A stretch of 64,000 nucleotides of DNA from NCBI RefSeq assembly GCF_023703325.1, contig NZ_JAMQGM010000049.1:62001-126000 (forward strand). The letters are read 5' to 3'. This document shows positions 46,056-62,572 of this stretch, in pieces. Position 1 is the stretch's first letter. The number at the start of each line of letters is the position of its first letter. A model generated the notes under the pieces. The model was not told where the DNA came from. It saw only the letters and a list, made by a program, of their open reading frames with translations, and made no database searches. This DNA comes from Streptomyces meridianus. Its GTDB lineage: Bacteria > Actinomycetota > Actinomycetes > Streptomycetales > Streptomycetaceae. The position numbers and the translations under genes were made by a program.

Positions 46056-46433
46056 ATGCCGGACCCCACCGGTAGGACCGGGAGCCATGCCGCGCAGAGT
46101 CAACTGCCGCCTGCAGCCCTCCCGTTCGATGAACTCCCCGCCGGCAGCTCGCGCCGCTCCCTGTGGCTGCTGCTGGTGCCCGCCGTTCTCTACGGCCTCG
46201 CGCCGCTGGTCGCCAACCGCATCGAACCACGCGTCCTGGGCGTCCCCTTCCTGCTCGCCTGGATCATCGGGGCCACCGTGCTGAGCCCGCTCGCCATCTG
46301 GCTCACGGCCCGGCTCGACCCCGCCTACCGGGCCGGAACGGCCGAATCCCTACCCGTCGACCGCCCCGCAGGTCCCGCGGCTCCCGCCCGCGACGAGCAC
46401 CACACCGCCGCGAGCGAAGGAGAGGCCCGATGA
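46056..46433 (+). CDS. DUF3311 small membrane subunit of the sodium symporter
   Basis: ATG 46056 after GAGGAAGGAA gives 125 residues. Two helices, WLLLVPAVLYGLAPLVANRI and FLLAWIIGATVLSPLAIWLT, end in TARLDPAYRAG, the DUF3311 pattern. Such proteins are almost always encoded immediately before a sodium:solute symporter, as here with an ATGA overlap, and probably act as its accessory subunit. The Pro-rich tail of about 40 residues is not conserved. Confidence 0.9.
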   Translation: MPDPTGRTGSHAAQSQLPPAALPFDELPAGSSRRSLWLLLVPAVLYGLAPLVANRIEPRVLGVPFLLAWIIGATVLSPLAIWLTARLDPAYRAGTAESLPVDRPAGPAAPARDEHHTAASEGEAR

Positions 46434-47953
46434 GCAGTTCGGCCGCGATCGCCACGACGATATTCGGGCTGGCGATGGTGGCGACCATCGTCATCGGCGT
46501 CCTCAGCGCCCGGGGACGCGACAAGGGCCTGGCCGAGTGGTCGGTCTCCAGCCGCGGACTCGGCGTGCTCTTCATCTGGCTGCTGATGGCCGGCGAGACC
46601 TACACCAGCTTCTCGTTCCTGGGCACGGCCGGCTGGTCGTACTCCTACGGGGTGCCGATCCTCTACCTGGTGGCGTACCTCACCGTCGGGTTCGGCGTCG
46701 CCTACGTGGTGGGCCCGGCCCTGTGGACGTACGCGGGCCGGCACCGGCTCATCTCCATCGCCGACATGGCCGAACACCGCTTCCGCTCCCGGCCGGTGGG
46801 CATGCTGGTCGCCGTTGTGACAACCGTGTTCATCGTTCCGTACATCCAGGTGCAGATCCAGGGCATGGGCGTGGTGGTCAACGCGATGACGTACGGCAGC
46901 GTGGATCTGCGCCTCGCCGCCGTGATCTCCTTCGTCGTCGCCGAGGTCTTCATCCTGGTCTCCGGGCTTCGGGGATCGGCGTGGGTGAGCGCCCTCAAGG
47001 ACGTGCTGGTGATCGCGGTCGTCGTGTTCCTCGCCGTCTACGTGCCGATGCACTACCTCGACGGGGCCGGCGACTTCATGCACCGCATGGTGACGGAGAA
47101 GGCGGAGTGGCTGACCTTCCCCGGACACGACTCCGGCGGACTCGACGGCACCTGGTTCGCGACCACCATGCTGCTGAACGCCGTCACCATCACGATCTTC
47201 CCCACCACCGTGGCCGGTTTCCTCAGCGCCAAGAGCCCCAACGCCGTACGTCACAATGCCTTGTTGCTGCCCTGGTACCAGCTGCTGCTGTTCATCCCGA
47301 TGATGGTCGGAGCCACCGCACTGTTCGTGATGCCGAACCTCGGCAATCCCGATCTGGCCCTGTTCAGCCTGGTCACCGACGCACTGCCGGCTCCGGTCGT
47401 CGCCGTGATCGGTGTCGCGGGGGCGCTGTCGGCGATCGTGCCGATGAGCGTCTTCATGCTCGCCATCGGCACCCTGTGGGGCCGCACGCTGCTGGGCGGC
47501 GGCAACGGCGCGGACCCGCGCAGCCGACGCACCGGCACGGCTCCGGCGGACGACGTCCGCACCAAGAGGCTCTCCCAGGCGGTGTGCTTCCTCGCCGGTC
47601 TGCTCGCCCTGGCGGGCAGCCTCTTCTTCCCCAACACGCTGGTCCAGCTGTCCGTCCTGTCCTACGAGGGCTTGGCCCAGCTGGTGCCGATCGTGCTGCT
47701 GGCGCTCTACTGGCGCCGCTTGACCGCCCCGGCCGCGGTTGCCGGACTGGTGGCCGGACTGGCCGTGATGACGGCGCTGTGGGCCTCGGGCAACGACCCG
47801 TGGCACGGCGTCAACGGCGGCATCATCGCACTCGCCGTCAACCTGCTCGTGGCCCTGGGACTCACGCTGGTGCGGCCGGCCGCTCCCTCCGTACCGCTTC
47901 GGGAACCGGCACCGCAGGCGACGGCAGGCGCCGCACGGAGGGGGACGGCGTGA
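46430..47953 (+). CDS. sodium:solute symporter (SSS family)
   Basis: Start overlaps DUF3311 (ATGA), giving 507 residues and about thirteen helices. Family motifs: SARGRDKGLAEWSVSSRGLGVLFIWLLMAGETYTSFSFLGTAGWSYSYG in helices 1-2, FGVAYVVGPALWTYAGRHRLISIADMAEHRF, and GVAGALSAIVPMSVFMLAIGTLWGR. It imports an organic solute, likely an acid or amide, driven by sodium. Its place between the oxidative enzymes and the amidohydrolase makes it the uptake step of the operon. Confidence 0.92.
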   Translation: MSSSAAIATTIFGLAMVATIVIGVLSARGRDKGLAEWSVSSRGLGVLFIWLLMAGETYTSFSFLGTAGWSYSYGVPILYLVAYLTVGFGVAYVVGPALWTYAGRHRLISIADMAEHRFRSRPVGMLVAVVTTVFIVPYIQVQIQGMGVVVNAMTYGSVDLRLAAVISFVVAEVFILVSGLRGSAWVSALKDVLVIAVVVFLAVYVPMHYLDGAGDFMHRMVTEKAEWLTFPGHDSGGLDGTWFATTMLLNAVTITIFPTTVAGFLSAKSPNAVRHNALLLPWYQLLLFIPMMVGATALFVMPNLGNPDLALFSLVTDALPAPVVAVIGVAGALSAIVPMSVFMLAIGTLWGRTLLGGGNGADPRSRRTGTAPADDVRTKRLSQAVCFLAGLLALAGSLFFPNTLVQLSVLSYEGLAQLVPIVLLALYWRRLTAPAAVAGLVAGLAVMTALWASGNDPWHGVNGGIIALAVNLLVALGLTLVRPAAPSVPLREPAPQATAGAARRGTA

Positions 47954-49569
47954 TCCACGAAACGACACCGGTGCTGTACCGCGCCGCGCACATCGTCAGC
48001 CAGCAGGACACCGGTTGTGAGCCCGAGGCGTTCGCCGTCGACGGAGGACGCATCCGTGCCACGGGCACCCTCGCCGGACTGCGGTCGCGTTTCCCGGGCG
48101 CGCCGGAGGTCGACTTCGGCGAGGCGACCGTCGTCCCCGGCTTCAACGACGCCCACATCCACCTCGCCATGACGGCCGACAACCTGCTGCACCTCGATCT
48201 GTCCGCCGACGCCGTCAGCGGCGTGGACGGCCTGCTCCGCCGGGTGTCGGACGAGGCCGGGCGGACCGGACCGGGGGAGTGGATCCGGGGCAGCCGCTAC
48301 GACGATGCGAAGACCGGCGCGGTCACCCGCTGGGATCTCGACCGGGCGGCCCCCGGCCACCCGGTGATCGTCGTCCATGTCGCCGGGCACTGGGGGGTGG
48401 CCAACTCGCCGGCGCTGCGTGCGCTGGGCATCGACGAGGACACACCCGCGCCCGACGGCGGTGACCACGGCCGGGGACCCGACGGACGTCTCGACGGGCG
48501 GCTCGTCGAACGCGCCCTGATGAACGTCGTGTATCCCGCGACCGCGCGGGGGGAGTCGCCGCTCCGGGCGAGCTCGGCCGAGGACCGGATGAGCGGCCTG
48601 GCCCGGGCGCAGCGCATGTGGCACGCCGCGGGGCTCACCTCCGTCTGCGACGCGCTGATCGCACCGGACGACATCGCCCTGCTGCGGCGGGCCCAGGCCG
48701 ACGGAAGGCTCACCCTCCGGGTCGGCATGCTGCTGTCCGTCGACCACTATCCGGCGGCACGGGCCCTCGGCGCCGGCAGCGGCTTCGGTGACGACCGGTT
48801 GCGGCTGGTCGGGGTCAAGGCGTTCGCCGACGGTGCCATCGGCGGGCGGACCTGCCTGCTCTCCGAGCCGTACGCCGATGCGGGCGGGCACGGGATACAG
48901 ACCACCCCCACCGCCGAGCTGGCCGAACAGGTGCGGGTCGTGCACGAGGACGGCAACCGGATCGGGGTGCACGCCAACGGCGATGCCGCGATCCGGCTCG
49001 TCCTCGACGCCTTCGAGGCGGCGCAGCGCGAAGCGCCGCGGCCGGGGCTGCGGCACCGCATCGAGCACTGCAGCATCATCGACGAGAGCATCCTGGCCCG
49101 CATGCGCGCACTCGACGCGATCGCCGTCCCCTTCGCCGGCTATGTCGGATACCACGGCGGTGCGTTGACCACCTGGTACGGGGCGGACCGCACCGAGCGG
49201 ATGTTCGCCCACCGCTCCTTCCTGGACGCCGGGGTCACCGTCGCCGGATCGTCGGACCATCCGTGCGGCCCGTACCAGCCCCTGGCCGGCCTGCAGTCGA
49301 TGGTGACCCGGCACGGCGCCGACGACAGCGCGCCGGTCGGCCTCTCCCAGCGCGTCACGCCTGCCGAAGCGCTGCGCATCTTCACCCTCGGCTCGGCGGA
49401 GGCGGAGGGCACCGCGAGCCGCAAGGGGCGGATCGCGCCCGGACACCTCGCGGACTTCACGGTCCTCGGCGGGAATCCGCTGACCGTCGATCCGGGGGAG
49501 ATCTCCCGGATCCCGGTGCTGGCCACGTACGTGGACGGCCGGAGCGTGTACGAGGCGACGGCGGGCTGA
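47950..49569 (+). CDS. YtcJ-type amidohydrolase 1
   Basis: GTG 47950 overlaps the symporter stop (GTGA); 539 residues. Metal and catalytic residues of the amidohydrolase 3 group are present: GFNDAHIHLAM (HxH), VGVKAFADGAIGGRTCLLSEPY, IGVHANGDAAIRLVLDAFE, LRHRIEHCSIID and VAGSSDHPCGPYQPLAG. Characterised relatives include N-substituted formamide deformylase. It is the last gene of the FadR-controlled operon and probably opens or deformylates the substrate that the M20 and oxidative enzymes then process. Confidence 0.9.
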   Translation: MIHETTPVLYRAAHIVSQQDTGCEPEAFAVDGGRIRATGTLAGLRSRFPGAPEVDFGEATVVPGFNDAHIHLAMTADNLLHLDLSADAVSGVDGLLRRVSDEAGRTGPGEWIRGSRYDDAKTGAVTRWDLDRAAPGHPVIVVHVAGHWGVANSPALRALGIDEDTPAPDGGDHGRGPDGRLDGRLVERALMNVVYPATARGESPLRASSAEDRMSGLARAQRMWHAAGLTSVCDALIAPDDIALLRRAQADGRLTLRVGMLLSVDHYPAARALGAGSGFGDDRLRLVGVKAFADGAIGGRTCLLSEPYADAGGHGIQTTPTAELAEQVRVVHEDGNRIGVHANGDAAIRLVLDAFEAAQREAPRPGLRHRIEHCSIIDESILARMRALDAIAVPFAGYVGYHGGALTTWYGADRTERMFAHRSFLDAGVTVAGSSDHPCGPYQPLAGLQSMVTRHGADDSAPVGLSQRVTPAEALRIFTLGSAEAEGTASRKGRIAPGHLADFTVLGGNPLTVDPGEISRIPVLATYVDGRSVYEATAG

Positions 49570-50704: not shown

Positions 50705-51982
50705 TCACGGGGCGCACCGGAGGGCGAACAGGATCGTCGCGGCCTCGGCGGGGACCGTCGGCCGCAGTCCGGTCAGCTGCGCGAAGCGGCTCAGCCGGTT
50801 GAGGACCGTATTGCGATGGCAGTACAGGCGGCGGGTCGCCTCCGTGACCGACCCCGACGCGCAGTAGGCGGTCACCGTGGCCACCAGCCGCTCCCGCTCG
50901 TGAACGGGCAGCGGGCCGAGCCCGGACAGGACCGCATCGGCCAGGAGCTCGCCGGTCTCGCCCAGCTTCACCGCGGCCAGCGGCATCCATGCCTGGGCCA
51001 GGGTCACCGGCCGTGACGCGCCGCTCCCCAACGCGGCGGCGATCGACTCGGCGACCCGGACCATCGCGGGAACCCGCGCCAGTCCGTGCGCCACGGGAGC
51101 CACCCCGCACGGGACGTCGTCCAGCCACGCCCCGGGCCCTGACCGCTGGCCGGGCGGCAGCTGTGCCACGAACACCAGCATCCCGTTGTGCTGCTGGAGA
51201 TGGGACGCCTGGCCCCCAAGATGCCCGGACACCGCTCTGCGCAGCGCCGCCTGCGCCTCCGGCAGCGCGACCGCGACCGTGAAGTCGTCCTGCGCGTTCA
51301 CCTGGAGCAGGGTCGCCGCCTGTGCCACGAGCTGCTGGTCCCGGCCGTCCGACGAGAACAGACGGCCCATGATCCCTTCCCGCTCGCGCTCCCGCTCCCT
51401 GGCCTGCACCGCGATCTCGTCCAGATAGGAGGCGTGCACCTCCACGGTGTGGAATTCGACCGCCTCCCACACGCGCACGGCTCCGTTGGTCAACTCGGGC
51501 AGGCCGTCCCCCGGGGTCCGCTCGAGGAAGGCGTTCCACAGCACACGGAAGTCCATCCGGACGGCCTGGAGTAGCCGTTCCAGCGGCACCCCCTGCCGGG
51601 CGCGGCGGTGCCCCAGCCGATGCGGTGTTTCGCGCAGTTCGTCCGGTACCGGGAGGTCGCCGATGAGACGCAGCAGGAGCTCGAAGCATGCGCGGGCCGT
51701 CTCCCGCAGGTCTCCCGGCGGCACCGTCGACCGGTAGTCGTCGAACGCGGAGACCTCCGCGACGTAGGCCGCGACCAGGTCGTCGAGGTGGTCCAGGCAG
51801 TCGCGCACCAGGGTGCGCATGCCGTGGGGGAGCGGATGCCCGCCCCCACCGGATTCAGGTCCGCCGGGCACCGCAGGCGTGTCCGCGCGGTGCATACCCA
51901 CAGAGGAGGGCAGAAGGCCGCTGTCCCCGCCGCCCGCCGTGGCAGTTGCTTGGTGCTCCCCGGCCGGAGGTGAATTGTGCAT
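50705..51982 (-). CDS. PucR-type transcriptional regulator
   Basis: ATG 51982 (MHNSPPAGEHQ) gives 425 residues; a GTG two codons earlier is possible and the ribosome site is poor. The N-terminal half is helical with an EREREREG stretch, the middle resembles GGDEF-like PucR sensor regions, and the C terminus is the PucR helix-turn-helix: LVATVTAYCASGSVTEATRRLYCHRNTVLNRLSRFAQLTGL. It diverges from the urease-like operon and is its probable regulator. PucR relatives control purine, ureide or amide use. Confidence 0.9.
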   Translation of the reverse strand: MHNSPPAGEHQATATAGGGDSGLLPSSVGMHRADTPAVPGGPESGGGGHPLPHGMRTLVRDCLDHLDDLVAAYVAEVSAFDDYRSTVPPGDLRETARACFELLLRLIGDLPVPDELRETPHRLGHRRARQGVPLERLLQAVRMDFRVLWNAFLERTPGDGLPELTNGAVRVWEAVEFHTVEVHASYLDEIAVQAREREREREGIMGRLFSSDGRDQQLVAQAATLLQVNAQDDFTVAVALPEAQAALRRAVSGHLGGQASHLQQHNGMLVFVAQLPPGQRSGPGAWLDDVPCGVAPVAHGLARVPAMVRVAESIAAALGSGASRPVTLAQAWMPLAAVKLGETGELLADAVLSGLGPLPVHERERLVATVTAYCASGSVTEATRRLYCHRNTVLNRLSRFAQLTGLRPTVPAEAATILFALRCAP

Positions 51983-51989
51983 ACGCACA
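51976..51989. promoter_or_regulatory. palindrome over the PucR start codon
   Basis: TGTGC-ATAC-GCACA (5+4+5) spans the start of the PucR-type gene in the region shared with the urease-like operon. Binding here could block the regulator's own translation start or transcription. Confidence 0.4.
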
Positions 51990-52105
51990 GTATGAGGGCG
52001 CCAGCCGGGAGCGAATCATCATTGTCCCCCCACCCCCTCACCGGGCAGCCTGCTGGAGATGTCCCGCAGCGGCCCCGCCCGCCGTCCAGCCCGAGGGGGA
52101 GATGC

Positions 52106-52684
52106 ATGCACCTGACGCCACGCGAGCAGGAACGCCTCACGCTGTTCACGGCCGCCGAACTGGCCCGGCGACGCCTGTCGCGCGGCGCCCGGCTCGGGGC
52201 CACCGAGGCCGTCGCCCTGGTCTGCGACGAGATCCTGGAATGGGCCTGGGACGGGGTGCCGCTGGACGAGGTCGTCCAGCGCGCATCCGGCGCCGTACCG
52301 CGCGGGCAACTGCTGCCCGGTGTTGCCGAGGCCGTGCCGAGCATCCAGGTCGAGGCGCTGTTCCCGTTCGGCACGACCCTGGTGCACGTGCCGGAGCCGT
52401 TCGGCCCCGCCGACCCCACGGGACCGGGAGGAGTCCTCACCGCAGGGGAGGAACGAACCCTCGCCCCGGGCCGTCCCCGGAAGAACCTGATGGTCACCAA
52501 CCGCGGGATCCGTCCGGTCTGGATCTCCTCCCACTATCCGATCGAGGAGGCGAACCCGGCCCTCGAGTTCGACCGGGAAGCCGCCCGCGGCCACCGCCTC
52601 GACGTACCGGCGGGCACATCCGTGGAGTTCGAGCCCGGTGTCTCCCGGAGCATCACCGTCGTCACCCGAGGAGGAGCGCAATGA
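52106..52684 (+). CDS. urease-like gamma/beta fusion subunit, divergent
   Basis: ATG 52106 (MHLTPREQERLTLFTAAELA) after GAGGGGGAG gives 192 residues. Residues 1-100 match urease gamma (TEAVALVCDEILEWAWDG; LLPGVAEAVPSIQVEALFPFGTTLV) and 110-190 match beta (NLMVTNRGIRPVWISSHYPIEEANPALEFDREAARGHRLDVPAGTSVEFEPG). The beta core usually reads SHYHFFE; here it is SHYPIEE, and gamma LNYPEAVAL is LGATEAVAL. The alpha-like gene follows with ATGA overlap. It may build a urease-like complex acting on another amide. Confidence 0.88.
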   Translation: MHLTPREQERLTLFTAAELARRRLSRGARLGATEAVALVCDEILEWAWDGVPLDEVVQRASGAVPRGQLLPGVAEAVPSIQVEALFPFGTTLVHVPEPFGPADPTGPGGVLTAGEERTLAPGRPRKNLMVTNRGIRPVWISSHYPIEEANPALEFDREAARGHRLDVPAGTSVEFEPGVSRSITVVTRGGAQ

Positions 52685-54369
52685 GCAGCATGGCGCGCAG
52701 CGAGTACGCCTCCGTCTACGGACCGACCGCCGGCGACCGCATCCGGCTGGCCGACACCGGCCTGTGGGTACAGGTCGAGGCGGACGACACCGAGCCCGGT
52801 GAGGAACTCCTCGGCGGCTGCGGCAAGACCGCACGCGACGGCCTGCTCGTGGCCGGCCGTGCACCGCGCGACAGCGCTCTGGACATGGTTGTGCTCGGCG
52901 TGGTCGTCATGGACCCGCTGCTCGGGGTGCGCAAGACCAACATCGGCATCAAGGACGGCAGGATCGTCGGCACGGGCCGGGCCGGAAATCCGCAGACCAA
53001 CGACGGCGTGGAACTCGTCGTCGACTCGCACACGGCGATGATCACCGGTGAGGGGCTCATCGCAACGCCGGGCGTCGTCGACTCCCACGTCCACCTCTCC
53101 AGCCCCGAGGTGGTGCCGGCGGCACTCTCCGCGGGGGTCACGTCGCTGGTCGGCATGGGCATCGGCGGCGTGTGGGACGTCGGGGCAAATCCCGCCCACA
53201 ACCTCCACTCCCTGATCGAGGGCTGGCGCGACGTCCCCATGAACGTGGCGTTCCTCGCCCGGGGTTCGTCCTCCTCGAGGGAACTGCTCGAGCGAGCCGT
53301 CCTGGCCGGCGCCGGCGGGTTCAAGATCCACGAGGACTGGGGGGCCACCCCCCGGATCGTCGACACGTGCCTGGGCGTCGCGGAGGACGCCGACCTGCCC
53401 GTAGCGCTGCACACGGACACCCTCAACGAGTCCGGCTACCTCGCCGACACACTGGACGCCACCGGCGGCCGGACCGTGCACGCCTACCACGTCGAGGGCG
53501 GCGGCGGTCACCCCGACCTGCTCGAGATCGTGTCCCAACCGCACGTGCTCACCTCGTCGACGACGCCCACACTGCCCCTGACACCGGCGACCGTCGCCGA
53601 ACTGCTGCCGATGACGATGACGGTCCACCGAGGCCACCACGGCATCGGCAGCGACGTGTCCATCGCGGCGAGCCGGGTGCGCGAGCACGCGATCGCCGCC
53701 GAGAACGCGCTGCACGACATGGGCGCGATCAGCATCGTCAACTCCGACTCGATGGGCATGGGCCGGATCGCCGAAACCGCGCGCCGCACCTGGCAACTCG
53801 CCCATGTCCAGGCCGAATTGGCGGGGGAGAGCGGCCCCGGCGTGGTCAGCAACGCGCGGGTGCTGCGCTACCTCGCCAAGATCACGCTCAATCCGGCCGT
53901 CGCGCACGGCATGGCCGCACACGTCGGTTCACTGAGCCCCGGCCGGCTCGCCGACATCGTGCTCTGGCAGCCGGCCACCTTCGGGGCCCAACCCGAACTG
54001 GTACTGAAATCCGGCTTCGTGGCCTGGGGCCAGAGTGGATCCGGCTCCGGCTCGACCCGGCTGACACAACCGCGGATCATGAAGCCCTACTTCGGCGGCC
54101 TGGGCGGGGCCCCGCGCAGGCTGTCGACGGTGTTCGTCTCCCGGGCGTCCCTCGACGACCGGCAAGCCGCCGCGGAGCTCCCCCCCGGTGTGCGCTACAC
54201 GGCACTGACCGACAGCCGCGGCCTGACCAGAGCCGACATGACAGGCAACACCGCCGTCCCCCGGGTGACCGTGCCGACCACTGCTGACTCCGTACTGGTG
54301 GAGGGGCGGCCGGTACCCGTCCACCACGCCGCGGAATTGCCACTGACCCGGCTTCAGAATCTGGCCTGA
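52681..54369 (+). CDS. urease-like alpha subunit, divergent
   Basis: ATG 52681, 562 residues (about 567 in classic UreC). Nickel ligands align: H136 and H138 (DSHVH), K215 and H217 (GGFKIHEDWG), H244 (ALHTDTLNE), H270 (AYHVEGG) and D356 (NSDSMGMG). Two differences stand out. The glycine loop after H270 is two residues shorter, and the active-site flap MVCHH reads MTVHR, so the flap cysteine (Cys319 in Klebsiella) is Val315 while the base His is kept as H316. No ureD, E, F or G lies nearby. It may hydrolyse a urea-like amide rather than urea. Confidence 0.9.
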   Translation: MSSMARSEYASVYGPTAGDRIRLADTGLWVQVEADDTEPGEELLGGCGKTARDGLLVAGRAPRDSALDMVVLGVVVMDPLLGVRKTNIGIKDGRIVGTGRAGNPQTNDGVELVVDSHTAMITGEGLIATPGVVDSHVHLSSPEVVPAALSAGVTSLVGMGIGGVWDVGANPAHNLHSLIEGWRDVPMNVAFLARGSSSSRELLERAVLAGAGGFKIHEDWGATPRIVDTCLGVAEDADLPVALHTDTLNESGYLADTLDATGGRTVHAYHVEGGGGHPDLLEIVSQPHVLTSSTTPTLPLTPATVAELLPMTMTVHRGHHGIGSDVSIAASRVREHAIAAENALHDMGAISIVNSDSMGMGRIAETARRTWQLAHVQAELAGESGPGVVSNARVLRYLAKITLNPAVAHGMAAHVGSLSPGRLADIVLWQPATFGAQPELVLKSGFVAWGQSGSGSGSTRLTQPRIMKPYFGGLGGAPRRLSTVFVSRASLDDRQAAAELPPGVRYTALTDSRGLTRADMTGNTAVPRVTVPTTADSVLVEGRPVPVHHAAELPLTRLQNLA

Positions 54370-54385
54370 CCGGGAACGGAGAACC

Positions 54386-56080
54386 ATGCTCGACCTGAAA
54401 CTCGTCAACGCCCGCATCCGCACCGTCGACGACAGCCACCCGCATGCCCGCACCCTCGGTGTGCTGGGCGACCGCATCGTCGGCCTCGACAAGGCGGTCG
54501 GCGACCTCCCCGCCCGCACCACCCTCGACTGCCGGGGAGCCGTCGTCGTTCCCGGGTTCGGCGACGCCCACAACCACATGGCGTGGTTCGGCCAGTCCCT
54601 GGACGAGGTGAACCTCGCACCGGCCCGGTCCCTGAACGACGTGCACCACGCCGTCGCCCGCCGGGCGGCCGAACTGCCCGCCGGTGCCTGGGTGGTGGGC
54701 TCCGGCTACGACGACACCGTCATGGGCGCCCACCCGCACCGCGACGCCCTGGACCGCGCCGCCGGCGGACGGCCGGTGTGGCTCAAACACCGCTCCGGCC
54801 ACATGTCCGCGGTGAGCAGCGAGGTACTGCGCCGCTGCGGAGTGCTGGACGCAAGTGCGACCGAACCCGACGGCGGCGTCGTCGTGCGTGACCGCGACGG
54901 CAGCCCGACCGGGCTGCTCCAGGAGCGCGCGCAGGAGCTGGTGACCGGCCTCGTCATGCCCTACCCGGTCGAGGAACTGGCCCGGGCCCTGGGGAAGGCG
55001 AGCGCCGTCTACGCCTCCGAAGGCCTCACCCATGTCGTCGAGGCCGGTATCGGACGCGGTCTGATCGGCCGGAGCCCCGTCGAAGCCGCCGCCTACCAAC
55101 TTGCCCGCGAACAGGGAGTTTTGCGCACCCGAGTCGAGCTGATGGTGGCCGCCGACAACCTGCACCCGCTCCAGGCCCATCCCGATGACGGCATCACTAC
55201 CGGAATCGACCTCGGCCTTCGTTCGGGATTCGGAGACGAGTGGCTGCGCCTGGGGCCCATGAAGATCTGGCTGGACGGCTCACTGGTCGGGCGCACCGCG
55301 GCGGTCACGGAACCCCTGTGCGGACACGACCACCACAGCGGCATCTACCAGGACGCGCCCGAGGAGATGCGCCGCCGCGTGGTCGATGCGCACCGGGCCG
55401 GCTGGCGGATCGCCGCGCATGCCATCGGCGACGCCGCCGTCGACCTGGCACTCGACACCCTCGAGGAGGCACAGCGCAGCACACCCCGTCCCGACGCGCG
55501 GCACCGGATCGAGCACGCCGCCGTCGTCCGCGACGACCAACTGGCCCGCTTCGCCGAGCTGGGCGTGACACCGGTACCGCAGGCGTACTTCCTGCACGCC
55601 ATCGGCGACACCATGGCACAGGCGCTGGGGCCCGAGCGCACCCCGTGGCTGTACCGGCACGGCTCGTTCCTGCGGCACGGCCTGCGGGTGCCGGGCAGCT
55701 CCGACCGTCCCGTGGCGGCTGGCGCCCCCCTCCTCGGCATGCAGTCGATGGTCGAACGCCTCAGCCGGGACGGACGACTCCTCGGCGCCGACGAACGGGT
55801 GAGCGCCGAACAGGCCCTGCGCGCCTACACGCTGGACGCCGCCTGGGCGAGCCACGACGAACACCGGCGCGGCAGCCTCACCCCCGGCAAGCACGCCGAC
55901 TTCGTCCTGCTGTCCGACGACCCCGTCGGGACATCCGGCGGGCGGATTTCCGCCATCGAGGTCCTGGCCACCTTCGTGGCGGGCGCATGCGTCCACGGAA
56001 CAGACGAACTGGAACACCACGGATCGGTGGACGGCCCCCTTCCCACGGCCGCACCGCCGCACGCAAGGAGCAGCGCATGA
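54386..56080 (+). CDS. YtcJ-type amidohydrolase 2
   Basis: A 564-residue protein 16 bases after the urease-like alpha gene. Motifs: GFGDAHNHMAWFG (HxH), LGPMKIWLDGSLVGRTAAVTEPL, IAAHAIGDAAVDLALDTLE, ARHRIEHAAVV and VPGSSDRPVAAGAPLLG. It is the same family as the amidohydrolase at 47950 but clearly distinct: SSDRP replaces SSDHP. With the urease-like genes and a permease it should catalyse one hydrolytic step of an amide or ureide route. Confidence 0.9.
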   Translation: MLDLKLVNARIRTVDDSHPHARTLGVLGDRIVGLDKAVGDLPARTTLDCRGAVVVPGFGDAHNHMAWFGQSLDEVNLAPARSLNDVHHAVARRAAELPAGAWVVGSGYDDTVMGAHPHRDALDRAAGGRPVWLKHRSGHMSAVSSEVLRRCGVLDASATEPDGGVVVRDRDGSPTGLLQERAQELVTGLVMPYPVEELARALGKASAVYASEGLTHVVEAGIGRGLIGRSPVEAAAYQLAREQGVLRTRVELMVAADNLHPLQAHPDDGITTGIDLGLRSGFGDEWLRLGPMKIWLDGSLVGRTAAVTEPLCGHDHHSGIYQDAPEEMRRRVVDAHRAGWRIAAHAIGDAAVDLALDTLEEAQRSTPRPDARHRIEHAAVVRDDQLARFAELGVTPVPQAYFLHAIGDTMAQALGPERTPWLYRHGSFLRHGLRVPGSSDRPVAAGAPLLGMQSMVERLSRDGRLLGADERVSAEQALRAYTLDAAWASHDEHRRGSLTPGKHADFVLLSDDPVGTSGGRISAIEVLATFVAGACVHGTDELEHHGSVDGPLPTAAPPHARSSA

Positions 56081-57414
56081 AAGACACACAACCGGCCGAC
56101 CGGGGCGCCGCGCCCACGACACCGGCCCCGGCGGTGGTCACCGGCAAGGACGCAGGACGGGTGGCGTTCGCCGCCTTCGTCGGCACCGCCCTGGAGTGGT
56201 ACGACTACTTCCTCTTCGGCACCGCCGCGGCCATCGTCTTCAACACCCTCTACTTCACTACCTTCGACCCGGCCACGGCCACACTCGCCGCCTTCGCCAC
56301 CTTCGGCGTCGGCTTCGCGGCACGCCCGATCGGCGCGGTCGTCTTCGGCTGGCTCGGCGACCGGATAGGCCGGCGGCCCGCCCTGCTCGTCACGGTCGTC
56401 CTGATCGGCGTGTCCACCGGTCTCATCGGTCTGCTGCCGGGCTACGCCTCCATCGGCATAGCCGCACCACTGCTGCTCGTCCTGCTCAGGCTTCTCCAGG
56501 GCACGGCCGTCGGCGGTGAATGGGGCGGCGCGGTCACCCTCGCCGTGGAACACGCGCCCCCGGGTCTGCGGGGCCGGTACGCCGCGCTGCCGCAGGTCGG
56601 ATCCCCCGTCGGGACTCTGCTCTCCTCCGGTGCGTTCGCCCTGGTGCTCCTGCTCCCGAAGGACGACTTCGAGTCCTGGGGCTGGCGTGTGCCGTTCCTG
56701 CTCGCCTTCCCGATGATGCTCGTCGCGCTGTACATCCGGCGGCGCGTGGAGGAATCGCCGCTCTTCGACGAACTGCTCAAGCAGGACGAGCGGGCGAAGA
56801 TCCCGGCGCTCGAGGTGTTCCGGTCCGCCTGGCGGCCCCTCCTGGTCGCCATGGCGTCCGCGCTGCTGGGGGTGGGCGGCTTCTACCTGCTGACCACCTT
56901 CGTGATCAGCTACGGCGCCGACACCCTGGGCCTGTCCCGCGGCCTCATGGTCAACGCCACGCTGGTGGCCGCTGTCGTCGAGGTCGGCGTCATCCTGGTC
57001 GTGGGACGGATCTCGGAGCGGCTGGGCCCCGGCCGGGTCACCCTCTGGGGCGGCCTGGCCAGCGCGGCCTGCGCCTTCCCCGTGTTCTGGCTCATCGACA
57101 CCAGGAGTCCGGTCGCCATCGTCTTCTCGATCGCCGTCGGCATCGCGGTGCTGTCCGTGGCCTACGCGGTGTCCGGCGCACTGCTGACCGAACTGTTCCC
57201 GGCGCGCCTGCGCTACAGCGGTGTGGCTCTTGCCTACAACCTGGCCGGGGCGCTCACCGGCTTCCTGCCGGCCGCGGCGACGGCGCTGCTGAAGGTGAGC
57301 GGCAACGCCTCCTGGCCGGTGGCACTGCTGCTCGTCGGCCTCTCCCTGCTCACCGCGCTCGGGGGTTTCCTCGGGGAGCGGATGCGGGTCAAGGACCCCG
57401 TCGCCACCGGCTGA
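56077..57414 (+). CDS. MHS-type MFS permease
   Basis: Start overlaps the amidohydrolase stop (ATGA), giving 445 residues. The metabolite:H+ symporter pattern is plain: FVGTALEWYDYFLFGTAAAIVFNTLYF in helix 1, FAARPIGAVVFGWLGDRIGRRPALLVTV in the 2-3 loop, LLRLLQGTAVGGEWGGAVTLAVEHAPPGLRG and TELFPARLRYSGVALAYNLAGAL. Such permeases import small acids or osmolytes. It is the uptake step of the urease-like operon. Confidence 0.92.
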   Translation: MKDTQPADRGAAPTTPAPAVVTGKDAGRVAFAAFVGTALEWYDYFLFGTAAAIVFNTLYFTTFDPATATLAAFATFGVGFAARPIGAVVFGWLGDRIGRRPALLVTVVLIGVSTGLIGLLPGYASIGIAAPLLLVLLRLLQGTAVGGEWGGAVTLAVEHAPPGLRGRYAALPQVGSPVGTLLSSGAFALVLLLPKDDFESWGWRVPFLLAFPMMLVALYIRRRVEESPLFDELLKQDERAKIPALEVFRSAWRPLLVAMASALLGVGGFYLLTTFVISYGADTLGLSRGLMVNATLVAAVVEVGVILVVGRISERLGPGRVTLWGGLASAACAFPVFWLIDTRSPVAIVFSIAVGIAVLSVAYAVSGALLTELFPARLRYSGVALAYNLAGALTGFLPAAATALLKVSGNASWPVALLLVGLSLLTALGGFLGERMRVKDPVATG

Positions 57415-57495: not shown

Positions 57496-58869
57496 TCAGG
57501 CCAGCACCTTCCCGGGGTTGAGGATGCCGAGCGGATCGAAGGCCGCCTTGATGTCCCGGTGCAGTCGCGTCCCGAGTGGACCGATCTCCTTCGCGAGCCA
57601 GTCCCGTTTGAGGACGCCGACCCCGTGCTCCCCGGTGATCGTGCCGCCCAGGGACAGCCCGAGCTGCATGATCGCGCCGAACGCCCGCTCCGCTCGTTCC
57701 ACGGCGGCCGGATCGCCGCGGTCGAAGATCACGGTCGGGTGCATGTTGCCGTCCCCCACGTGTCCCGGGCAGGACACGCGTACGCGGTGTTCCGCCGCGA
57801 TCGCGCCGATCCCCTCGACCAGGTCCACCAGCCGCGCGCGGGGCACCGCCACGTCGTCGATCAGGGTGGCGCCGAGCCGCTCGATCGCAGCGTTCACCAG
57901 CCGCCGGGCCTCCATGAGCATCGAGGCCTCGGCCGCGTCGGAGGCCTCGGCGACATCGAGGGCTCCCGCTTCGGCACAGATCCGCCCGATCGCCGTGACG
58001 TCCTCGGCCGCCCGCGGGCCCCGGTCGGACTGCGCGAGCAGCAGTGCCTGCGCTCCCTCGGGCAGACCCATGTCCCGGTAGTCCTGGATCGCGCGCACGG
58101 TCACGGAGTCGAGGAACTCCAGCAACGACGGGCGCAGTCCGGCGGTCATGATCCGCGACGCGGCGCCGAGGGCGTCCGCCGGCGATCCGAACACCGCTGC
58201 TACCGTCAGCGCGGCCTCCGGGGCGGGTCGCAGCGCGAGCGTCGCCCGGGTGATCACCCCGAGGGTTCCCTCCGAGCCGACCAGCAGCCGGGTGAGGTCG
58301 TAGCCGGCAACACCCTTCGCCGTACGGCGTCCGGTGCGCAGGACCTCCCCGCTCGCAGTGACCACCTCGAGGCCGCGGACGAAGTCGCCCGTCACGCCGT
58401 ACTTCACGCAGCACAGTCCGCCCGCGTTCGTGGCGATGTTGCCGCCGATGGTGGACATCTCCCACGACGACGGGTCCGGCGGGTAGTACAGCCCCTTCGC
58501 GGCCACCGCCCTGGACAGCACCGCGTTCACCACGCCCGGTTCCACGACCGCGACCTGGTCCGCCGGGTCGATCTCCAGGATGCCGTCCATCCGCGTCAGG
58601 GCCAGGACGAGGCCGCCGTCGACCGCGTTCGCGGCACCCGACAGCCCGGTCCGTGCGCCCTGGGGCACGACGGGGACGCGGTGGGCGGTCGCGATGCGCA
58701 TCGCCCGCTGCACCTGTTCCGTGGTGGTGGGGCGCAGCACGGCGAGCGGGGCGCCCGACGGGCAGAAGCTCGCCTCGTCGCGGCGGTAGGCGGCCGTCCC
58801 GGCCGGTTCGGTGAGCACCGAGCCGGCGGGGAGCGCGGCGGCGAGTTCGGCCAGGACCCCGTCAGCCAT
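57496..58869 (-). CDS. FAD-linked 2-hydroxyacid dehydrogenase (GlcD/D-lactate type)
   Basis: A 457-residue protein, [21 protein letters not shown]-binding motifs: PVVPQGARTGLSGAANAVDGGLVLALTRMD, PPDPSSWEMSTIGGNIATNAGGLCCVKYG and VGSEGTLGVITRATLAL; the C-terminal domain has CPGHVGDGNMHP and GGTITGEHGVGVLKRDWL. Relatives oxidise lactate or glycolate to the keto acid. As the last gene of the fuconate-type operon it could turn the lactate made by that route into pyruvate. It overlaps the SDR gene by eight bases. Stereospecificity cannot be read. Confidence 0.9.
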   Translation of the reverse strand: MADGVLAELAAALPAGSVLTEPAGTAAYRRDEASFCPSGAPLAVLRPTTTEQVQRAMRIATAHRVPVVPQGARTGLSGAANAVDGGLVLALTRMDGILEIDPADQVAVVEPGVVNAVLSRAVAAKGLYYPPDPSSWEMSTIGGNIATNAGGLCCVKYGVTGDFVRGLEVVTASGEVLRTGRRTAKGVAGYDLTRLLVGSEGTLGVITRATLALRPAPEAALTVAAVFGSPADALGAASRIMTAGLRPSLLEFLDSVTVRAIQDYRDMGLPEGAQALLLAQSDRGPRAAEDVTAIGRICAEAGALDVAEASDAAEASMLMEARRLVNAAIERLGATLIDDVAVPRARLVDLVEGIGAIAAEHRVRVSCPGHVGDGNMHPTVIFDRGDPAAVERAERAFGAIMQLGLSLGGTITGEHGVGVLKRDWLAKEIGPLGTRLHRDIKAAFDPLGILNPGKVLA

Positions 58870-59611
58870 GGGGGACCCGCAATGCGGTCAGTCCGCCGTC
58901 GACCGGGAGCGCGACACCCGTGGTGGCCCCTGCGTCCGGTGACGCCAGCGAGCAGATCGCGTGGGCGACCTCGTCGGAGGTGACCAGGCGGCCGGAGGGC
59001 TGACGGGCCTCGAGGGCCGCGAGTTCGGCGGCCGGGTCGGGCGCGGCGGCGAGCAGTCGCTGCACCCAGGGGGTGTCGGCGGTCCCCGGCAGAACGCAGT
59101 TGACCCGGATGCCGTCGGCGAGGTGGTCCGCCGCCATCGCCAGCGTCAGCGCGTGCACCGCGCCCTTGGAGGCGCTGTAGAGCGCGCGTTGCGGCAGCCC
59201 GGTGACGGCGGCGACGGAGCACGTGTTGACCACCGCGGCGCGACCGGACCGGCGCAGCGCGGGCAGCGCAGCCCGGGTCACGCGCACCGTGCCGAGCACG
59301 TTGACGTCCAGCACCGACCGCCACTCGTCGTCGTCGTTGTCCTCGACAGTGCCCCGCGCGCCCGCTCCGGCGTTGTTCACGACCACGTCGAGGCCGCCGA
59401 ACTCCTCGACGACCGGGCCGACCGCGGCCCGCACCGCGTCGTCGTCGGTGACGTCGCACTCCACGCCGAGCAGCGGTGGACCGGCGCCATCCGGCCGCAG
59501 GTCGAGGCAGGCGACCCGGGCGCCCCGGGAGGCGAGCATCCGCGCCGTGGCGAGCCCGATGCCGGACGCGCCGCCGGTCACCAGGGCGCGTATCCCCGCG
59601 AAGTCGCTCAC
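58862..59611 (-). CDS. SDR dehydrogenase of the fuconate-type pathway
   Basis: GTG 59611 ([19 protein letters not shown]) overlaps the dehydratase stop (GTGA), giving 249 residues. Motifs: [19 protein letters not shown], the Ser in [10 protein letters not shown] and YSASK; the end is [17 protein letters not shown]. By context it probably oxidises 2-keto-3-deoxy-L-fuconate to the 2,4-diketo form, the step before the hydrolase. This role is inferred from neighbours, not from sequence alone. Confidence 0.87.
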
Positions 59612-60906
59612 GACTCCGCGCTCCACGCGGCCCCGTCGGGGTAGCGGAACCGGTGCCGCGAGGTCTCGAGGATCTCCGCGCCGCTGCCGGGCTCCTTCGG
59701 CGGCAGGTACCGCCCGCGGCGGGAGCGCACCGGGGCCGCGAAGTGCTCGTGCAGGTGGTCGACGTACTCGATGGTGCGGTCCCGCATCGAGCCGGACACC
59801 GCGACGAAGTCGAACATCGACAGGTGCTGCACCAGTTCGCACAGGCCCACACCGCCGGCGTGCGGGCACACGGGAACGCCGAACTTCGCCGCCAGCAGCA
59901 GGATCGCCACGTTCTCGTTGATGCCGGCCACGCGGGTCGCGTCGAGCTGGAGGACGTCGATCGCCCCGGCCTGCAGCAGCTGCTTGAACACCACCCGGTT
60001 CTGGACGTGTTCGCCGGTGGCGACCCGCATCGGCGCCACGGCGCGGCGGATCGCCGCGTGCCCGAGGACGTCGTCCGGGGACGTCGGCTCCTCGATGAAC
60101 CACGGATCGAACTGCGCCAGGCGCTCGAGCCAGCCGATCGCCTCGGGCACGCTCCAGCGCTGGTTGGCGTCGATCGCGATCCGCACGTCCGGGCCGACGG
60201 CCTCGCGGGCAACGGCGAGGCGGCGCACGTCCTCCTCGACGTCCGCGCCCACCTTGAGCTTGATCAGATCGAAGCCGTCCGCGACGGCCTCGCAGGCGAG
60301 CCGGGCGAGCTTGACGTCGTCGTAGCCGAGCCAGCCGGGCGACGTCGTGTAGGCGGGATATCCCTCGTCCTCCAGGGCGGCGGCCCGCTCGGCCCGTCCG
60401 GGCTCCGCCGCACGCAGCAGGTCCAGGGCCTCGTCCGGGGTGAGCGCGTCGGTGAGGTAGCGCCAGTCGACGAGGCCGACGATCTCCTCGGGCGTCATGC
60501 GGGAGAGGAACCGCCACACCGGCAGGCCGGCGCGCTTGGCGGCGAGGTCCCAGGCGGCGTTCACCACGGCGCCGATGGCCATGTGCATGACGCCCTTCTC
60601 AGGCCCCAGCCAGCGCAGTTGGGAGTCGGCGAGCAACGACCGGGAGAACCCGCCGAGGTCCGCGCACACCTCCTCGACATCACGGCCGACGACCGATCCG
60701 GCCAGCAGCCGGATCGCCGCGCACTGCACCTCGTTGCCGCGCCCGATGGTGAAGGCGAAGCCGTGCCCGTCCGGCCCGTCGTCGGTGCGCAGGGTGACGT
60801 AGGCGGCGGAGTAGTCGGGGTCGGGATTCATCGCGTCGGAGCCGTCGAGTTCCCGGGAGGTGGGGAAGCGGACATCCTCGACAGTGAGGGAAACGATGAC
60901 GCTCAT
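59608..60906 (-). CDS. L-fuconate dehydratase (enolase superfamily)
   Basis: A 432-residue protein, [20 protein letters not shown]. Enolase-superfamily residues: KLKVGA (base Lys), IDANQRW (first metal Asp), [10 protein letters not shown] (second), TGEHVQNR (third) and [15 protein letters not shown] (acid/base His). The N-terminal [26 protein letters not shown] is characteristic of L-fuconate dehydratases. It removes water from L-fuconate to give 2-keto-3-deoxy-L-fuconate. It overlaps both neighbours by four bases. Confidence 0.93.
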
Positions 60907-61775
60907 GCGGCCTGCTCCTTCTTCGTGCCGGAGGTCATGACCTGCCGCTGCCGCCCGAGTTCCTCGATCTCGAGCTCGACGACGTCACCCGGCTTCAGGT
61001 AGGGGAAGCGTCCGGACATCGCCACGCCCTCGGGCGTTCCGGTGTCGATGACGTCTCCCGGTTCCAGGGCCATGTAGTGACTGAGGTGGTGCACGATGCG
61101 GGCCACCGGGAAGATCATGTCGGCGGTCGTGGAGTCCTGCCGGGGCTCGCCGTTGACCCAGGAGCGCAACCGCAGCGCCTGCGGATCGTCGATTTCGTCG
61201 GCCGGTACGAGCCACGGCCCCAACGGGTTGAAACCGGGGGCGCACTTGCCCTTCGACCACTGGCCGCCGGAGTGCTCGAGCTGCCAGGTCCGTTCGGAGA
61301 GGTCGTTGGCGATGGCGTAGCCGGCGATGTGGCGCAGCGCCTCCTCGGGTGAGGAGAGACGTTCGGCGCGGCGGCCTATGACGACGGCGAGTTCCACCTC
61401 CCAGTCGGTGCGCTCGCTTCCGTCGGGTATCACCGTCTCGTCGTCGGGGCCGGCGAGGGTACCGGGGTGCTTGAAGAACACCACCGGGGCCTTCGGAGGC
61501 TCGGCACCGGACTCGGCCGCGTGGGCCGCGTAGTTGAGGCCGACGCAGATCACCGCCGCGGGACGGGCGACCGGGGGGCCCACCCGCAGGCCGTCGTCCG
61601 AGACGCGGGGCAGTGCGCCTTGTTCCAGGGCCTTCCTGACGCGGTCGATTCCACCGCCCGCGAGGAACGCTCCGTCGATGTCGGGGGTCACGCCGCTCAG
61701 GTCGTGGACCATGCCGTCGGCGGTGCGCACGGCGGGGCGTTCGGATCCGGGGGGGCCCAGACGCATCAGCTGCAC
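60903..61775 (-). CDS. fumarylacetoacetate-hydrolase-type 2,4-diketo-3-deoxy-L-fuconate hydrolase
   Basis: GTG 61775 ([16 protein letters not shown]) is four bases after AAGGAG; ATG 61766 is possible. The 290-residue protein matches the FAH family: [35 protein letters not shown], the metal Glu pair in [40 protein letters not shown] and [12 protein letters not shown]. In the known non-phosphorylative fucose route this type of enzyme splits the diketo acid into pyruvate and lactate. It overlaps the dehydratase by four bases. Confidence 0.9.
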
Positions 61776-61867
61776 GGTTCTCCTTCGTGTCTCCGTCAAA
61801 GGGGGGTTGTGGTCGTGTCGCTTCGCTCGGTCGGGGGATGGCAGGGGTGGGCGGGCCGGGCTCCGGA

Positions 61868-62572
61868 TCAGGAGCTGTCGGATACCGGCAGCAGCCGCTC
61901 GTAGAGGGCGGTCTCGAGATGTCCGCGCATGGCGGCTTCCGCGGCCTGCGGATCTCCCGCGAGGATGGCGTCGGTGATCGAGCGGTGTTCGTCGAGCGTC
62001 TGCAGGCCGATGCCCCGGTTGTAGGAGAGCCGGAAGACGTGCAGGTGGCAGTGGGTGCGCTCGAACGCCTGACGGACCTGGGCACTGCCGGCCAACTCGG
62101 CCACCAGGACGTGGAAGCGGGTGTCGTGAGCCGTCAGCGCCTTGTAGGCGTCGTAGGTGGTGTCGCGGGGCGCGTCGCACGATCCCATCTCCGCGCGGAG
62201 CCGTTCACGTCCTTCGTCGCTCAGCCGCTCGGCGGCCCGGGCCGCGGCCCACGGCTCGAGGAGAAGCCGGAACTGGTAGAGGTCCTCGAGCTGTTCACGG
62301 TTGAGCAGCGGGGTGGTCCGGTACCCGCGCAGCGGTTCCTTGACGACCAGTTCCGCCGACTCCAGGCGTGCCAGGGCCTCCCGCACGGGCGTCGGTGAGA
62401 CCCCCAACTGCCGGGCCAGGCCGTCGATGGAGACCCGGGCGCCGGGCTCGATGGCGTGGTCCATGATCAGCGCCTTGATCGCTTCATGGACGTCGTCCGC
62501 GAGCATCTGGCGTCTCGGCAGCGGCGTCACGGGCGCTCGGCCGCCCGCCTCGTTCGTCGGTGCCCCGTTCAT
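61868..62572 (-). CDS. GntR/FCD family regulator of the fuconate-type operon
   Basis: ATG 62572 (MNGAPTNEAGGRAPVTPLPR) after GGGAGAG gives 234 residues. The winged helix is LADDVHEAIKALIMDHAIEPGARVSIDGLARQLGVSPTPVREALARLESAELVVKEPLRGY; the FCD domain carries DLYQFRLLLEPWAA, HDTRFHVLVAELAG and LDEHRSITDAILAGD, with metal-binding Asp and His. It heads the operon, 92 bases before the hydrolase, and diverges from the Nramp-type gene; a palindrome lies between. Confidence 0.92.
   Translation of the reverse strand: MNGAPTNEAGGRAPVTPLPRRQMLADDVHEAIKALIMDHAIEPGARVSIDGLARQLGVSPTPVREALARLESAELVVKEPLRGYRTTPLLNREQLEDLYQFRLLLEPWAAARAAERLSDEGRERLRAEMGSCDAPRDTTYDAYKALTAHDTRFHVLVAELAGSAQVRQAFERTHCHLHVFRLSYNRGIGLQTLDEHRSITDAILAGDPQAAEAAMRGHLETALYERLLPVSDSS

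Follow-up and report, generated by a model that had tools for sequence, protein, structure and literature searches.

Organization of the urease-like operon

The window analysed here, a 64,000-nucleotide stretch of Streptomyces meridianus DNA (contig NZ_JAMQGM010000049.1; host assembly 5.64 Mb, 98% complete), carries a urease-like operon in which the gene for a gamma/beta fusion (UreAB) is followed by genes for a UreC-like protein, a YtcJ-type amidohydrolase and an MHS permease, with a PucR-type regulator gene transcribed divergently. This gene order and its coordinates were confirmed (Table 1), and ATGA overlaps were found between UreAB and the UreC-like gene and between YtcJ and MHS. An earlier interpretation made without database searches, here called the sequence-only reading, had described the same operon and proposed that it serves an amide other than urea.

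Table 1. Features of the urease-like operon, in window positions
Feature	Position	Strand	Evidence
PucR-type regulator, divergent	50705-51988	-	HTH_30 3.4e-14
Near-palindrome TGTGCATACGCACA, candidate operator, overlaps pucR start	51976-51989		
Urease gamma/beta fusion (UreAB-like)	52106-52684	+	Urease_gamma 9.6e-29, Urease_beta 3.1e-26
Beta motif SHYPIEE, lacking the second His of SHxH	52529-52549	+	
UreC-like metallohydrolase	52681-54369	+	NF009686 678.8 bits; urease fold
HVH metal ligands H136, H138	53086-53094	+	
K215, lysine carbamylated in urease	53323-53325	+	
H244 metal ligand	53410-53412	+	
H270 ligand; glycine loop shortened to HVEGGGGHPD	53488-53517	+	
Flap TVHRG, V315 at Cys place, H316 kept	53620-53634	+	
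D356 metal ligand	53746-53748	+	
YtcJ-type amidohydrolase (Amidohydro_3)	54386-56080	+	PF07969 5.6e-91
MHS-type metabolite/H+ symporter	56077-57414	+	TIGR00883 4e-114, 381.8 bits, under cut-off 443

The alpha, beta and gamma domains of urease are all present in the two proteins. The UreC-like protein passed the cut-off of subfamily NF009686 (354 bits) and did not reach that of the urease equivalog TIGR01792 (557.9 bits, cut-off 680), and the fusion protein scored under the cut-off of NF009671 (211.8 bits, cut-off 243). An AlphaFold model of the UreC-like protein (mean predicted local distance difference test score, pLDDT, 86.2; predicted TM-score 0.91; residues 274-276 of the glycine loop below 50) aligned with urease 1ubp_C (Z 50.0, root-mean-square deviation 2.0, 558 residues aligned). 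Ureases overall matched at Z 46-50 and a deviation of about 2, among them the iron urease 3qga (Z 49.0) and structures of the Klebsiella aerogenes C319A variant, and the next relatives were dihydroorotase, hydantoinases and allantoinase at Z 23-24. A urease fold, here a predicted one, does not by itself show urease activity.

The active site departs from urease in three places and retains the metal ligands. With M1 at 52681, the UreC-like protein has all six metal ligands in place (H136, H138, K215, H244, H270 and D356), and the alignment to pigeon pea urease together with the known order of the motifs equates this set with His134, His136, Lys217, His246, His272 and Asp360 of K. aerogenes urease, as listed in PMC3816311. 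The Cys-His pair of the urease flap (VCHH) is absent: the flap reads T314-V315-H316-R317-G318, and in the same alignment V315 takes the place of the flap Cys while H316 matches the flap His. The glycine loop EGxGGGHxP is also lost, with HVEGGGGHPD standing two residues short of the H.EGAGGGHAPD of ordinary Streptomyces UreC. In the fusion protein the beta motif is SHYPIEE; ureases have SHxH at this point, in most cases as SH[FY]HF[FA]E. The sequence-only reading had pointed to all of these features: the retained nickel-binding residues and carbamylated lysine, the TVHRG flap with Val315 in place of Cys, the short loop after H270 and the loss of SHYHFFE from the fusion. The residues it named stand at the positions it gave.

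A separate clade with altered active-site loops

An evenly drawn sample of 392 same-genus genomes, taken from a larger group, contained 13 with a clade member at E <= 1e-160. A contig scan with an alignment of these 13 members gave 519 confirmed loci, and among the best 80 of these at least 61 (L077-L137) belong to the clade, at 54-90% identity. Within the same best 80, clade members occur in Streptomyces, Marinactinospora, Geodermatophilus, Saccharopolyspora, Pseudonocardia, Prauserella, Qaidamihabitans, Actinomycetospora, Sphaerisporangium, Microbispora, Streptosporangium and Nonomuraea, and in metagenome-assembled genomes (MAGs) of Micrococcales, Acidimicrobiia and Actinomycetospora. In Streptomyces sp. 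NBC_00841 one copy is carried by a linear plasmid of 1.5 Mb. A search of viral contigs with the UreC-like protein gave no match.

In a UreC tree built from 69 of the 134 distinct rows, the window's clade (32 rows, Actinomycetota) was separate from ordinary UreC with support of 100/100, which bears out the expectation of the sequence-only reading that the protein would fall outside ordinary UreC. A second group (13 rows, 100/100) comprised the type II ure(AB)C of Streptomyces, supported on its own at 100/98, and genes linked to nonribosomal peptide synthetases (NRPS); the window's protein is not inside the type II clade. The ordinary UreC rows other than the Blastococcus sequence L149 formed a group of 23 (100/99); the placement of L149, a long branch, is unsure (67/14). 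Within open-licence papers, mostly judged by title and the start of the abstract, we found nothing recognisable as concerning this clade.

We counted the active-site residues across the 134 distinct UreC rows, of which 65 are clade and 69 non-clade. Each of the 65 clade rows has the HxH, Lys, two His, flap His and Asp, with Val preceding the flap His in every one. The short glycine loop is present in 61/65 clade rows and 0/69 others. Among 65 clade UreAB rows (64 distinct, window included), the second His of SHxH is likewise replaced by Pro or Gln in 61, and it is kept in 26/26 ordinary, type II and NRPS-linked loci (21 by pattern and 5 by tblastn, the latter reading SHLHFPD in L052, SHAHVFE in L159 and SH[FY]HFFE in L035, L061 and L138). 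The four clade members that keep the long loop, the Acidimicrobiia MAGs L132, L133, L134 and L137, are the same ones that keep SH[FY]HFFE. In these sequences the loop shortening and the beta change thus occur or are absent together and mark the main part of the clade; the active-site loops have changed as a conserved set, which supports the sequence-only reading. With ligands and Val-His in 65/65 rows and the short loop in 61/65, the residue pattern is not a matter of chance.

The flap residue carries less information. In the 69 non-clade rows the position before the flap His is Cys in 45, Val in 20 and Ala in 4, the Val rows being those of the type II and NRPS-linked groups, and we rejected Cys-to-Val as a clade marker on this account. 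Because it is found in all clade rows and in other groups, whereas the loop and beta changes are confined to the main part of the clade, Cys-to-Val looks the older change. The flap Cys of urease is helpful and not essential, and K. aerogenes C319A urease is reportedly still active. The substitution that the sequence-only reading took as a sign of a different substrate is therefore real, but as an argument it is weak alone, being common to other groups, and loss of the Cys is reportedly tolerated in K. aerogenes. Loss of the Cys is also seen in L056, an ordinary-type UreC with Ala at that place in a same-genus genome with three UreF genes, and so says little on its own. A further flap variant, L149 (7330-11777; flap MGAHLQH, 48% identical to the window's protein), is followed by UreF, CobW/UreG-type and UreD genes by Pfam match and so retains accessory genes. 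A second candidate marker, a short MGIGGVWDVGANP stretch that follows the HxH region, was rejected as well, since it is shared with part of the ordinary UreC rows that have accessory genes.

The ureC-like gene is under selection. For this gene against five relatives the ratio of nonsynonymous to synonymous substitution rates (dN/dS) was 0.10, 0.12, 0.14, 0.14 and 0.14, showing that selection is purifying, and R334 is invariant in the 13 aligned member rows. That the protein is a non-catalytic or decaying paralogue, as its scores under the urease equivalog cut-offs might suggest, is hard to credit given these ratios, the ligands retained in every clade row and the conservation of the operon across genera. 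The clade is a real, conserved and separate variant of the urease family.

No UreF or UreD match in 19 clade genomes

Urease is the textbook enzyme that depends on a nickel-loading machine, and the sequence-only reading held that nickel loading was either borrowed from a second urease cluster or not needed. We found no match to UreF or UreD in the S. meridianus assembly, no second UreC, and for UreG only a match of 29.9 bits (cut-off 204), UreE being outside the search. Borrowed nickel loading therefore fails for this genome; the other half of the proposal fared better, and the accessory proteins look dispensable.

This absence recurs in relatives. UreF is absent in 5 of the 13 same-genus clade genomes, and with G222 set aside (81% complete, with further UreC pieces and a UreG above its cut-off) four genomes without UreF remained. 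A further UreF search covered 50 of the 61 clade loci (L077-L080, L085 and L135, duplicates of genomes searched before, were left out, and also L082, L088, L092, L107 and L108) and gave no match in 15 of these 50 genomes. The resulting set of 19 genomes without UreF (4 from the 13 and 15 from the 50) includes the window's genome and 6 MAGs. UreD was found in 0/19, with both positive controls detected, and 18/19 have exactly one UreC. The remaining genome, the complete chromosome of Streptomyces sp. SCUT-3, has a second UreC with type II motifs and no accessory gene around it by eye. The UreG search covered the 13 same-genus genomes; of the four that belong to the set of 19, G000, G067 and G169 had matches under the cut-off and G093 had none.

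These results bear on whether the protein could be a nickel enzyme loaded by other chaperones or spontaneously. Its nickel ligands are intact and this genome has the UreG-like GTPase under the cut-off, but with UreD and UreF absent in 19 genomes, and with unaided nickel uptake by ureases generally regarded as inefficient, we consider this quite improbable.

Genes accompanying the urease-like pair in relatives

We compared the gene neighbourhoods of 67 loci (L036, a duplicate of L079, was excluded; L034 and L083, with identical UreC, were both counted). Genes were called with a codon-usage caller, and UreAB adjoins UreC in 67/67 loci, 64 by the caller and three (L077, L081 and L125) supplied by tblastn. 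Within 6.5 kb of UreC and on the same strand we found MHS in 57/67 loci, YtcJ in 51/67, a thiamine pyrophosphate (TPP) enzyme in 20/67, an aldehyde dehydrogenase (ALDH) in 7/67 and a deiminase-type gene in 4/67, and within the same distance a PucR homologue in 53/67, always on the opposite strand. Some contigs end within the operon. MHS stands without YtcJ in L042, L045, L112 and L115, and in L046 only a fragment of YtcJ remains.

In one Nonomuraea branch (L127, L128, L129 and L131) YtcJ is absent and the order is MHS, an enzyme of the arginine deiminase/dimethylarginine dimethylaminohydrolase (ADI/DDAH) type, UreAB and UreC, with about 10-50 bases separating MHS, the deiminase-type gene (2740-3735 in L127) and UreAB. 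The deiminase-type gene also lies beside UreAB in two more Nonomuraea genomes, one gene being partial, and is missing from four other Nonomuraea clade members (66-77% identical to L127). The four complete named copies, which belong to the ADI/DDAH families, conserve TRDP, EGGT, HVDG and HCST, motifs that we take to contain the superfamily's catalytic residues (Glu, His and Cys). Elsewhere, an isochorismatase-fold hydrolase and an amidase are encoded nearby in the Acidimicrobiia MAGs L132, L134 and L137, and an ornithine-carbamoyltransferase gene follows in L133 and L134. Two sampled ALDHs exceed the aminobutyraldehyde dehydrogenase cut-off. For the TPP enzyme, guanidino-oxopentanoate decarboxylase was dropped as an identity because two sampled copies fell under the family cut-off, and glyoxylate carboligase because its matches were weaker than those to acetolactate synthase.

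Genes of urate catabolism are found close to the operon in loci of Streptosporangium and Nonomuraea (L121, L124, L126 and partly L183), with L121 encoding by profile uricase, 5-hydroxyisourate (HIU) hydrolase and 2-oxo-4-hydroxy-4-carboxy-5-ureidoimidazoline (OHCU) decarboxylase. These genes, and the position of dihydroorotase, hydantoinases and allantoinase as the next fold relatives, would suit an enzyme for another amide such as a cyclic (hydantoin-like) ureide, formamide or a purine-derived ureide (allantoate, ureidoglycolate). We regard this as unlikely, since the urate genes are limited to these few related loci and belong to separate transcripts, and the fold relation is common to all ureases. 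Taken together, the gene content points to guanidino, ureido or amide groups as the targets of several neighbours, and no single substrate follows from it. The ureide or substituted urea put forward in the sequence-only reading appears to fit some of them, namely the Nonomuraea deiminase-fold enzyme, the Acidimicrobiia isochorismatase-fold hydrolase and amidase, and the urate genes.

A proposed hydrolase of larger ureido compounds

We favour, at a probability of roughly 50%, the reading that the UreAB/UreC-like pair is an accessory-independent hydrolase of the urease family acting on a larger imported ureido compound; we infer both its metal and its substrate. In this scheme the MHS permease would import an N-carbamoyl (ureido) compound that the PucR-type regulator would sense, and the specificity of the enzyme would have been retuned from urea to this compound. 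The carbamylated lysine would carry a binuclear metal site that attacks the ureido carbonyl (R-NH-CO-NH2 -> R-NH2 + NH3 + CO2). In urease the amide nitrogens of the substrate are held by the glycine loop that follows the fourth histidine and by backbone carbonyls close by, and the flap closes over the bound urea; here the shortened loop and changed beta motif may make room for R. A short loop with the ligands, flap His and R334 kept would be expected of a hydrolase with a substituted leaving amine. The enzyme would work without UreD and UreF, and probably without UreG, acquiring its metal without chaperones. Iron, zinc or manganese would be likelier than nickel, given loading without UreD/UreF and the precedent of the Helicobacter iron urease, which is not known to need accessory proteins. 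YtcJ, or the deiminase-fold enzyme in the one Nonomuraea branch, may make the ureido compound, for instance from a guanidino compound. A more specific version, in which the urease fold serves as a ureido-acid or ureido-amine hydrolase without nickel chaperones and catalyses the second step of a guanidino pathway, removing the carbamoyl group from a ureido compound that the deiminase (one Nonomuraea branch) or YtcJ (other genera) would have formed from an imported guanidino compound, can be offered only tentatively. We know of no other urease-family enzyme with a non-urea substrate.

Several observations weigh against this proposal. UreF is present in 8/13 Streptomyces genomes and in 35/50 genomes of the further search, so accessory help is possible in those genomes. 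UreG was covered in only 4 of the 19 genomes without UreF and UreD, with UreE and the hydrogenase nickel chaperones HypA/HypB outside the search, and absence in draft genomes, and in 6 MAGs of the 19, is weak evidence. YtcJ is missing in 16/67 loci, some of them contig ends, and so is not essential. The deiminase is confined to one closely related Nonomuraea branch, and the two sampled TPP enzymes score 226 and 243 bits against the guanidino-oxopentanoate decarboxylase cut-off of 500.

A different account would have the protein still be a urease, one that hydrolyses urea with a non-nickel metal as Helicobacter UreA2B2 does, with neighbours that merely supply urea. All ligands and the flap His are retained, the overall fold, shared with the iron urease 3qga, is that of urease, UreF and UreD are absent in 19 genomes, and an iron-cofactored second urease is described for Helicobacter in PMC11541087. 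We nevertheless judge it doubtful: the short loop separates clade from non-clade rows, the beta His is lost in most of the clade and kept in the 26 other loci, an MHS permease stands in place of a urea transporter, and the protein scores under the urease equivalog TIGR01792.

On either account the clade persists in genomes without nickel-loading genes, with a rebuilt active-site entrance and purifying selection on ureC. Hydrolysis of substituted ureas, if true, shows how urease specificity can change; if urea is hydrolysed instead, the clade is another natural chaperone-free urease. The annotation 'urease subunit alpha' on such genes would mislead about urea use.

Comparison with known urease systems

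The pair resembles the nickel urease UreABC with UreDEFG (EC 3.5.1.5) in its alpha, beta and gamma domains, fold, six ligands, carbamylatable lysine and flap His, and differs from it in the flap Val, short glycine loop, lost SHxH, separate clade and a genome without UreD/UreF. The comparison with Helicobacter UreA2B2 covered the urease fold and the fused small subunit, which are alike; UreA2B2 is a urease, with iron instead of nickel. With the type II ure(AB)C of Streptomyces the pair shares a gamma/beta fusion (checked in L179 and L184) and, in most rows, Val for the flap Cys, but type II has the long loop GCGGGHVP, SHFHFFE and its own clade. An ure(AB)C-only order is reported for S. coelicolor and S. 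avermitilis, with no accessory genes in the clusters as described in PMC2492869. SCO5526 is named in PMC4991794, and SCO5525-5526 were unaffected by arginine or loss of argR according to PMC3293853. The type II rows are probably orthologues of SCO5526. In one type II locus (L179 4421-9822), UreAB/UreC precedes a YtcJ-type gene and another that resembles an amino-acid-type permease, and the YtcJ pairing thus recurs outside the clade.

The NRPS-linked pair (L035, L157, L164 and L165) shares the Val-His flap, the fused gamma/beta subunit and, in three annotated records, the lack of accessory genes beside it, whereas its long glycine loop, SHFHFFE, peptide-synthetase neighbours and different clade set it apart. 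This pair (flap TVHRL) adjoins NRPS and phosphotransferase genes on Streptomyces and Embleya plasmids, and was also found, unannotated, in Kitasatospora; in L035 a 2-oxoglutarate-Fe(II) oxygenase gene follows. The pair may have a part in making or trimming a natural product.

A candidate operator and genes flanking the operon

The near-palindrome TGTGCATACGCACA is the sole site of its kind in the window at <=1 mismatch (2 hits, one per strand of a single site, versus 0.06 expected), and it is aligned upstream of ureAB in relatives. An extended pattern occurs in 27/184 loci, several being copies of one another. Operons of the close group and of Marinactinospora carry it again, and it is lacking from the two Geodermatophilus loci, where PucR had no match. 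TGTGCATACGCACA is a candidate PucR operator. No GlnR-like box was found by pattern upstream of ureAB in 51901-52200.

Upstream of the operon, 46430-49569 encodes a sodium:solute symporter and another Amidohydro_3 (YtcJ-type) protein. Adjoining it on the other side, 57496-62572 on the minus strand encodes an FAD-linked oxidase, a short-chain dehydrogenase/reductase, an enolase-superfamily protein, an FAA-hydrolase and a GntR/FCD regulator, a cluster that perhaps serves sugar-acid catabolism.

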